From: an uncultured Sulfurovum sp.
Lineage (GTDB): Bacteria > Campylobacterota > Campylobacteria > Campylobacterales > Sulfurovaceae
NCBI GenBank assembly: GCA_947311605.1
Contig: CAMZLC010000022.1
Span: 1 to 45,818 of the forward strand
Direction: 5' to 3'
DNA: 45,818 nt
This document shows, piece by piece, positions 25,760-28,822 of this stretch. The notes below the pieces were generated by a model that searched no databases, was not told the origin of the DNA, and was given only the letters and a program-made list of their open reading frames with translations. Numbering within the stretch: the stretch's first letter is position 1; each line of letters begins with the position of its first letter. A program made the translations under genes and the position numbers.

Positions 25760-27199
25760 TTATTGCTTGGTATCAAAAACGAGAATAAAGCGCACTCCTC
25801 CTTCAATAGAGTGTATCTCTATGGCTCCTCCGTACCTCTTTTCAATAATCAATTTGACCATATGCAACCCTATCCCTGTTCCGACACTAGGATGCTTGGT
25901 AGTAAAGTAAGGATCAAATATCTTCCCCTTGATGCTTTCATCAATGCCGCCTGCATGATCCTCTATCTCTAGTATCTTTTTCCCATCTCTTATGTATGCT
26001 TTGATGGCAACCCTTCGGTCACTAATATCGTTTTCCACAAAAGCATCTTTGGCATTATTGAGTAGATTGATGATGACCTGGATGAGATCGTTTCTTGACC
26101 CATGCACCACATAGTCATTTTGTATACCAATCTCAATCTCTATACTGTTTTTCTCTATGGTAGATGAGATGATGCGGCATGCATGTTCTATGGCCTGAGA
26201 TATGCTGAAGCTGTCTTTTTGCTCCTGCGGTTTATAGAACTCTCGAAAATCATCTATGGTGTGAGACATGAAGGTGATCTGCTTTTGGACCTCTGCTACT
26301 TTCTCCTCTACTGTCTCCTGAGTCAACTTTCCCCTCTTCCCTCTGAGCTCCATGTTGACCAAAGCAGAGGATATCTGTGCCAATGGCTGCCTCCACTGAT
26401 GTGCAATGTTGCTTATCATCTCTCCCATGGAGGCAAGTTTGTTCTGATTCTCCAAGAGGATCTCTCTCTTGGACTGAATCAATAGCTCCTGCTTATAAAA
26501 GAGGTACGCCATAAAGATAAATATCATAAAAGTAAACAGCATTGCCAAGCCGCCTACCTCAAACTCTCTGATATGGTAGTCCACGATATCAGAGACAGGT
26601 GCCTTAAGTGATATGAAGGCTCTAGTGTCCCCCACCTTTTCATAAAAGCCATTAATATAGCCGTACCGCCTAATCATTGCCAGGGGAGCATAGGCAGGAT
26701 CTCCATGACACTCCATGCAGGAGGGTTTGTTTTTTCCTATGGGCAGAGCCATATAAAAGTACTGCGTGCCATTCTCCTCTATAATTTCGAAATGCTCTTT
26801 TATCTTGCCAGATTGAAACTCTTTTAGGATCTTTGATTCAAATGGATCTGCCTGATTGTCTGGATTTGTCGGGTTATTGGATGCCAACCTATATGTATAG
26901 GAGAGCTTTGCGTCCTTAAGCAAAATATCATATGTATTTTTGACAATATAGGAAGATGAGAAGATTTTAGGGTCAAAAAAATCCATGGCTAGCCTTCCCT
27001 CCGCTTTGAGCTGATAAATCAACGGCCTCTGCACACTCTCTATGTAGTTTCTTAATGCCTTGGTAGTGTTGAGTATGGATATTGCCTCTTGTTTCGTATC
27101 ATGTATGGCTAGATTTTTATAGAAATTATAGAACAGAAAAGCGATCACTGCATAGAGCAGGACAAAGAAGAGAACCACCACCTTGAAGCTATATTTCAA
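25760..27199 (-). CDS. Sensor histidine kinase with periplasmic heme-c-type (DUF3365/Tll0287-like) sensor domain
   Basis: Periplasmic CMECHGDPA; HisKA NIAHQWRQPL; HATPase NLLNNAKDA, GTGIGLHMVK. Confidence 0.9.
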   Translation of the reverse strand: MKYSFKVVVLFFVLLYAVIAFLFYNFYKNLAIHDTKQEAISILNTTKALRNYIESVQRPLIYQLKAEGRLAMDFFDPKIFSSSYIVKNTYDILLKDAKLSYTYRLASNNPTNPDNQADPFESKILKEFQSGKIKEHFEIIEENGTQYFYMALPIGKNKPSCMECHGDPAYAPLAMIRRYGYINGFYEKVGDTRAFISLKAPVSDIVDYHIREFEVGGLAMLFTFMIFIFMAYLFYKQELLIQSKREILLENQNKLASMGEMISNIAHQWRQPLAQISSALVNMELRGKRGKLTQETVEEKVAEVQKQITFMSHTIDDFREFYKPQEQKDSFSISQAIEHACRIISSTIEKNSIEIEIGIQNDYVVHGSRNDLIQVIINLLNNAKDAFVENDISDRRVAIKAYIRDGKKILEIEDHAGGIDESIKGKIFDPYFTTKHPSVGTGIGLHMVKLIIEKRYGGAIEIHSIEGGVRFILVFDTKQ

Positions 27200-27881
27200 G
27201 AGTATACCCCACGCCGTAGATATTTTTGATGAGCCTCTTCCCTATCTTTTTTCTCAATTCCTTGACAACAGACTTTACGGCCTCTTTGCTGGGGTCTTCA
27301 GACTCCCATATATAGTCATAGAGATCATCAAAGGTGACAATTTGGTTTTTTCTCTCAATGAGATACTCTAAAAATCTGGCTTCGTTTTTAGTGAGCCTTA
27401 TCTTGCTCTCTTTATGATACAGCGATTTTGAGGAAAAGTCATAAGTATATTCCGGGGAGATATCTACAGACGTCTGATAGCCTATCAGATCCAGGGATAC
27501 TTTCTCGAGAGCATTCACAAAAGAGTCTGTTGTGTAGGGCTTAGGGAGATATTTGACGATCTTCAGCTCAACTGCTCGCCACAGATACTCCTGTTCCGTA
27601 AAAGCGGAAAGTATGATGATGGGGATTTTATGGTCGGTCTCTCGAATCTGCCTGATCGCTTCGAGGCCATCCATGTTGGGCATACAGATATCCAACATAA
27701 GCACATCATAGCAGTTGTAAGTGAACTCATCCAGAGCCTCTTGTCCATCGGTCACATGCACCACTTTGTCAAAAAAAAGCTCTAATATTTCTATCGTATT
27801 TTTTGCTACTTCGATCTCATCTTCAGCGTAAAGTATCTTTTTGGTACTTAGTATATCGAGCGAATCTGAGTTGGTTTTCAT
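27189..27881 (-). CDS. OmpR/PhoB-family response regulator
   Basis: Receiver DVLMLDICMPNMDG, PIIILSAF, KPY; C-terminal winged helix. Confidence 0.93.
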   Translation of the reverse strand: MKTNSDSLDILSTKKILYAEDEIEVAKNTIEILELFFDKVVHVTDGQEALDEFTYNCYDVLMLDICMPNMDGLEAIRQIRETDHKIPIIILSAFTEQEYLWRAVELKIVKYLPKPYTTDSFVNALEKVSLDLIGYQTSVDISPEYTYDFSSKSLYHKESKIRLTKNEARFLEYLIERKNQIVTFDDLYDYIWESEDPSKEAVKSVVKELRKKIGKRLIKNIYGVGYTLEI

Positions 27882-28382
27882 CTATTTTTTCAATGTTGCT
27901 ATTTTGTAGATAATAAAAGCAAAGAGCAGCAGAATAAAAATGCTCAATACAACAGGAACTGACTTGGTAACAACATACAGCACAATCAGTATAGACAACA
28001 GGGTAGGAACTTCATTGTAGGCCCTAAAAAACTGACCGCTTTTTGTACATGCTCCCGACTCCAGTTTTTTCCTAAAATGTTCCATACTAAATGAGTACAC
28101 CGTGAGAAGGGCTAGGAGAAAAAGCTTGAGTATCATCCACCCATTACCAAGTAGTGACGGATTGAGATAGAGGAGGAGACCACCACTAATGATGCTTGCC
28201 CACATGGCAGGCAGACCTATGTATTTGTACAGTTTGTATTCTTGTATTTTTACAACCTCCACAAACTCTTCTTTTTCGCTATGCTCCTGATGATGCACAT
28301 AGAGTCTAGGCAGGTAAAAAAGCACCGCCATCCAAGACAAAATTGAGATCACATGAAACGACAAGAAATATAAATATTCCAT
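27882..28382 (-). CDS. hemJ: HemJ-type protoporphyrinogen oxidase / UPF0093 membrane protein
   Basis: SFHVISILSWMAVLFYLPRLYVHH, FFRAYNEVPTLLSILIVLYVV; four-TM pattern. Confidence 0.87.
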   Translation of the reverse strand: MEYLYFLSFHVISILSWMAVLFYLPRLYVHHQEHSEKEEFVEVVKIQEYKLYKYIGLPAMWASIISGGLLLYLNPSLLGNGWMILKLFLLALLTVYSFSMEHFRKKLESGACTKSGQFFRAYNEVPTLLSILIVLYVVTKSVPVVLSIFILLLFAFIIYKIATLKK

Positions 28383-28502: not shown

Positions 28503-28557
28503 CCCGAACCATACATTAGAATCGCCTCATATTCTGCAAAGGCTTAGTGCATAGTTT
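28503..28557 (+). repeat. Short (~60 bp) REP-like palindromic unit of the same family, in tandem with copy 2
   Basis: CCGAACCATACATTAGAATCGCCTCATATTCTGCAAAGGCTTAGTGCATAGTTT; shares the left-arm sequence of copy 2 and has its own closing arm TTAGTGCATAGTTT. Confidence 0.75.
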
Positions 28558-28563
28558 AGAATT

Positions 28564-28729
28564 ATCCCAAATTATGCATTAGAATCGCCTAATATTCTGC
28601 AAAGGCTTAGCGCATGGGTGTTTGCAAAGTATCGAAGGTTCACCCGTAGGTGAATCGATGATACTTTGTGAATGCCCATGTGCTAATGCTTTGTAGAAGA
28701 TGGGTGATCTCTAGTGCATAGTTTGGGAT
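28564..28729 (+). repeat. Long palindromic (hairpin) repeat, copy 2, full length
   Basis: TCCCAAATTATGCATTAGA...GTTCACC-CGTA-GGTGAAT...CTAGTGCATAGTTTGGGA; about 80-nt complementary arms with a 4-nt loop. Confidence 0.9.
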
Positions 28730-28822
28730 TATACTCATATTCTATTTATACACGGCTATTGAGCATATTGTTAGACTGAGAAGGGTACAATATCACAAAA
28801 ATACATTATAGGAGGAGAGAGA

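Follow-up and report, generated by a model that had tools for sequence, protein, structure and literature searches.

A mobile hairpin element of one bacterial order with a fold selected on a single strand

The hairpin and its surroundings

The window is the whole stretch of DNA that was analysed, 45,818 nucleotides of a contig from an uncultured Sulfurovum sp. At positions 28566–28727 it contains a hairpin of 162 bp. The minimum-energy fold of the plus strand has 72 base pairs and a 4-nt loop, with a predicted energy of –110.1 kcal/mol (z –16.6), compared to –73.3 kcal/mol for the minus strand. The plus-strand fold includes 12 G:U pairs and no A:C. A first-pass annotation, made from the sequence alone, had listed 12 transition differences between the arms and noted that every one leaves a G:U pair on the plus strand. 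All 12 are present at the coordinates listed, and are identical to the 12 G:U pairs of the fold. The arms also differ in ways absent from that account: alignment of the arms using symmetric scoring, which is blind to strand, yields 11 G:T and 0 A:C differences (p = 0.001 in an exact sign test), along with 6 transversions and 4 positions with gaps.

The hairpin is flanked by two copies of the pentanucleotide ATTAT (28561–28565 and 28728–28732), annotated as target site duplications from the sequence and from the family-wide count given below. Its ends form a terminal inverted repeat. The left end, CCCAAATTATGCATTAGAAT (28566–28585, plus strand), matches the ends of an IS1380-type insertion sequence in genome G103 (CCCAGATTTTGCAATAGAGT), and the right end (28707–28727, minus strand; reverse complement CCCAAACTATGCACTAGAGAT) was likewise compared with insertion sequence ends. 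The excess of G:T over A:C is concentrated in an inner core (28602–28693, plus strand), delimited by the position profile and by the match of a core-only covariance model, R2 (G000:C22:28602-28693). The full-length element was identified by its fold, by a check of its pairs and by BLAST; it also matches covariance model R1, with a score of 171.8 bits.

Two further copies lie in the window, both on the plus strand. Directly upstream of the hairpin is an older copy of 58 bp with a deleted tip (28503–28560; CCCGAACC...GTTTAGA). It is flanked by ATTGT and ATTAT, the ATTAT target site being common to both elements, and it belongs to a size class also seen at loci L022 and L024. The second copy is cut by the contig start (1–134), has 98% identity to positions 31–164 of the query, and ends in TTTGGG followed by TTTAA. 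On the other side of the 58-bp copy, the minus strand (25760–28382) encodes a two-component system, composed of a Tll0287-like sensor kinase and a response regulator, and a UPF0093 membrane protein.

The plus-strand gene downstream had been described as NosL-like. This assignment is weak (Pfam 20.7 bits against a cut-off of 24), and a scan for related proteins using this gene found nothing. No promoter or terminator stands out, with no intrinsic terminator near the element. The only Rfam match within the window is a tRNA; the element itself gave no match above the gathering score, the sub-threshold matches being chance matches, mostly to microRNAs.

The hairpin is a mobile element

BLAST identified about 20 full or partial copies of the element in the window's own draft genome, and showed that 15 of 60 related genomes contain relatives of it. 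When 398 genomes of the phylum were scanned with covariance model R1, built from 26 sequences, relatives turned up in 19, all of them belonging to one order, in which they are patchily distributed. Altogether, at least 23 of the genomes sampled, all from a single bacterial order, carry full-length copies, and one genome (G187) has the element in 48 places. Public records containing the core pattern are metagenome assemblies of Campylobacterales, Campylobacteraceae, Sulfurovum and Nitratifractor, together with one Peptococcaceae record (L358, JAFYPD010000106), the sole match outside Campylobacterales-type records and a pattern match that may be due to chance or contamination.

The copies are mostly 160–165 bp long (range 156–168), and almost all have CCC...TAGA ends on both arms. 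The 106 distinct full-length copies were inspected for flanking duplications. Perfect 5-bp duplications flank 69 of them and a further 25 have duplications with one mismatch, while control pairs of 5-mers taken 20 bp further out gave no perfect match in any of the 106. The duplication is 5 bp and no longer, the sixth base matching at chance frequency only (19 of 69). A copy in G187 (L153, 301–464) is nested in another copy and has duplicated TTGAA; since the interrupted copy shows what the empty site looked like, this proves the 5-bp duplication cleanly.

No reading frame of the element is consistently open. Of the 106 copies, no more than 5 have any given plus-strand frame open; for the minus-strand frames the maximum is 28, which is ascribed to the low stop content of a C- and A-rich strand, and a protein-coding element was rejected. 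A search for a plasmid or phage origin found no match.

The family thus has terminal inverted repeats, a target duplication of fixed length, no transposase gene and a dispersed multicopy distribution. Because the copies are of nearly fixed length, occupy many loci, are bounded by exact 5-bp duplications and include a nested insertion, the hairpin in the window is a non-autonomous transposable element (MITE) and not a leader of the NosL-like gene, as had been proposed. A NosL leader or riboswitch was also rejected on the grounds that there is no fixed gene association: copies adjoin unrelated genes, in both orientations.

In genome G024 the copies (L186–L200) fall into discrete size classes of 188, 162, 93, 79 and 67 bp. 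The short classes look as if the hairpin tip had been lost by deletion between stretches of micro-homology, and the same positions recur. A separate repeat family (L282–L286 and L290, in G034 and G022) has ends TATTACCGCACCA and two long hairpins, and matches the core model weakly.

Relationship to IS1380 insertion sequences

The ends of the element match those of insertion sequences in the same bacterial order that belong to the IS1380 family, of which ISEcp1 is a member. Of 21 carrier genomes, 5 encode IS1380-type transposases (PF13701). In G296 the IS1380-type elements are 1.66 kb long, with ends CCCAAATCCGTAAATAG and duplications TTAAA, TTTAT or ATTAT. In G103 there is a decayed element, with a reading frame that scores 67 bits against PF13701, and its ends (CCCAGATTTTGCAATAGAGT and CCCAAATTTTTCATTAGATAA) are nearly those of the MITE. 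The MITE thus has its ends in common with IS1380-family insertion sequences of both genomes, and resembles them in its CCC... ends and in the 5-bp AT-rich duplications. It differs from them in having no transposase gene and in its core, which was not found within the IS1380-type elements. Searches for an IS1380-type transposase in G024, which is rich in copies, and in the genome of the window, which is 72% complete, found none. In G041, a search with the 18-bp end for an autonomous element that is intact, of full length and bounded by precisely the subfamily ends gave no match either. We infer that an IS1380-type DDE transposase may move the MITE in trans, recognising the CCC...TAGA ends of approximately 20 bp.

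The fold is maintained on one strand

The asymmetry between G:U and A:C is a property of the whole family, where it far exceeds what chance would produce. When the arms of each copy are aligned symmetrically and read on the strand homologous to the plus strand of the window, G:T exceeds A:C in 105 of 106 copies and in every genome, with a total of 872:136; this set excludes one copy in G041 (L105) that has 4 of each. If the covariance model had chosen the strand, the result could be circular. This is ruled out, because orientation from sequence only agrees with the model for all 67 of the other copies, and the copies oriented by BLAST alone give 344 G:T and 42 A:C. One copy from the window's genome (L013, 1505–1691 of G000:C153) has a right arm close to the exact complement of the left, with 4 G:T and 3 A:C; its arms look as if homogenised by template switching or conversion.

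The bias varies along the element. The outer 18 positions, which the element shares with the insertion sequences, have few differences, at 63:27 G:T to A:C, and further in the ratio is about 10:1. This is the behaviour of a transposase site in double-stranded DNA for the outer part, and of a fold in a single strand for the inner part.

In the alignment of 26 sequences, 94.3% of the cells at paired positions are paired, compared to about 40% in controls in which the partners were slid, and double changes occur in 38 of 64 pairs. There are 231 double-change cells, against 77 in shuffles. The covariation score of 0.45 compares with 0.19 for shuffled data and with less than 0.1 when partners are slid. 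Two internal loops are also conserved: in one, G40 C41 faces U123 G124, and the other, around A71, faces G92-A93-T94. This numbering is approximate, alignment columns and positions in the first sequence being off by one beyond column 97.

Substitutions were then counted on a tree, using parsimony ancestral states on one FastTree topology, so that the counts are approximate. On internal branches, 62 changes away from a Watson-Crick pair lead to G:U and 15 to A:C (p 6e-8), which excludes the neutral decay of a palindrome. On terminal branches the numbers are 93 and 49 (p 3e-4), a significantly weaker bias (Fisher p 0.02), and changes private to single copies are split 37:23 (p 0.09). Double changes from one Watson-Crick pair to another number 68 on internal and 28 on terminal branches.

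The asymmetry could also be a by-product of strand-specific mutation in a single-stranded intermediate, either C-to-T, as had been suggested, or A-to-G. All the transitions in the window copy would fit such changes on the plus strand. The family as a whole does not fit: G:U interchanges with both A:U and G:C/C:G partners, keto-gaining substitutions are not in excess (309 vs 345 in paired columns, 30 vs 46 in unpaired columns), on internal branches G:U gives way to Watson-Crick pairs about as often as it replaces them (49 vs 62), and compensatory double changes are abundant. Strand-specific deamination is excluded, since the substitutions have no directional excess, and we consider such a mutational by-product highly improbable.

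As far as the aligned copies show, the stem is preserved by compensatory changes, G:U but not A:C is tolerated in it, and the internal loops are conserved. The original proposal of selection on the fold of one strand, rather than neutral decay, is therefore upheld by the count over 106 copies, the tree events, the covariation and the structure-free orientation. The comparisons indicate that the plus-strand fold, as RNA or as single-stranded DNA, is under selection. Since internal branches show a stronger bias than terminal ones, this selection acts chiefly in the lineage that spreads, and inserted copies drift more freely. This suggests that an RNA or single DNA strand of the element has a job that is so far undescribed.

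What the fold might do

One place for such a fold would be in cis within the mRNAs of neighbouring genes, as a leader, attenuator or stabiliser. Many copies are indeed intergenic and near gene starts, and RNase III is known to cut Correia MITEs within mRNAs (PMC10969869, PMC2649163). The neighbours of 49 copies with long enough flanks were classified using simple ORF-based gene calls. Divergent pairs (20) greatly outnumber convergent ones (3), which speaks for a role in cis, but at a divergent site one strand cannot serve both genes. Among co-directional neighbours there is no sense preference (10 sense, 12 antisense), and this lack of a matching orientation argues against a leader role in adjacent mRNAs. 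Together with the weaker bias on terminal branches and in private changes, this makes a cis role improbable. For the NosL-like gene in particular a leader function is not sustained, mobile copies being found in unrelated gene neighbourhoods without sense bias, and single copies being less biased than the spreading lineage.

A more serious alternative, though still an unlikely one in our view, is that the molecule that folds is not RNA but the plus strand as single-stranded DNA, at replication forks or during transposition. A DNA hairpin would tolerate G.T better than A.C, and the fold could unite the ends of the element or guide its insertion. The strand-specific covariation beyond phylogeny would be equally satisfied by single-stranded DNA, the covariation expected being identical to that of an RNA fold, and the tip deletions at micro-homologies suggest that hairpins do form in single-stranded DNA. 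Orientation relative to the replication fork also speaks for it. In four complete genomes (G026, G296, G034 and G187), which start at dnaA and whose GC skew fits an origin near 0, 58 of the 80 places have the G:U strand on the template of the leading strand, against 22 that do not (p 7e-5). The ratio is 11:0 in G026, 14:2 in G296 and a weak 29:19 in G187. The independence of these counts is, however, lowered by orthologous insertions common to G026, G296 and G034, and the G:U strand would then not be the exposed lagging-strand template; the bias in fork orientation is a lead, not a result. In addition, the outer 18 bp hardly show one-strand bias, and the target duplications indicate double-strand insertion.

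On the basis of these observations, we favour, by a modest margin over doubt, an IS1380-moved MITE whose core folds, as a plus-strand RNA copy, and thereby aids the spread or tolerance of the element. Between the ends recognised by the transposase, the core would have to fold whenever the plus strand is single. The folding strand would be an RNA copy of the element, made from an internal promoter or by read-through, and its fold may be bound by a protein that recognises it or serve as a substrate for cleavage by RNase III. Such a fold would serve the element's own spread or tolerance and not each neighbouring gene: because the bias is greater on internal branches and independent of host gene orientation, the fold seems to matter to the element itself.

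A bolder suggestion, which we regard as rather unlikely, is that different transposon ends carry the core hairpin as a structured RNA module that is itself transmissible. With the core-only model R2, the inner hairpin was detected in a few elements with other ends (L161 and L298, ends TGTTTTGGGATG; L135, ends GGGCACCTCTAAAAA; and L289), some with weak scores. If this were true, the module would raise the spread of whichever short element contains it, perhaps because its RNA binds a protein of the host or of transposition, and would amount to a selfish gene for a non-coding RNA that travels on MITEs.

Comparison with known repeats

In a limited literature search, neither this family nor an IS1380-derived MITE with such a core was found, and nor was any study of MITEs that compares G:U with A:C to test for a strand preference. 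Among known repeats, REP and REPIN elements are ones in which single-stranded folds matter for the mechanism. They are mobilised by RAYT transposases (PMC2817692, PMC3116915) and are, like the present element, palindromic extragenic repeats. The element described here differs from them in its 5-bp target duplications and long inverted ends, and no short tagged palindromes of REP type were seen.

BOX repeats of Streptococcus pneumoniae are also parasitic repeats, are sometimes transcribed, and have RNA folds predicted from alignments (PMC3049150). They differ in being modular (A, B, C), in having other ends, and in belonging to Firmicutes.

The element also resembles bacterial MITEs in general (Correia/NEMIS, BOX, RUP, ERIC, QMITE and TIME; PMC10969869), which are likewise short and AT-rich, with inverted ends, a target duplication, intergenic location, no coding capacity and a stable predicted stem-loop. 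Effects of MITEs at the RNA level are known, as in the cleavage of Correia elements by RNase III (PMC10969869, PMC2649163). MITEs are nevertheless usually seen as passive passengers, with hairpins that are a consequence of their inverted ends. The present element is unlike them in the selection on the fold of one strand, seen in the G:U versus A:C asymmetry of independent changes and in deep covariation throughout the order: one strand's fold is maintained across a bacterial order, while that of the complementary strand is allowed to weaken. It thus becomes a testable question whether bacterial MITEs can carry a functional RNA, or a single-stranded DNA hairpin that aids their movement.
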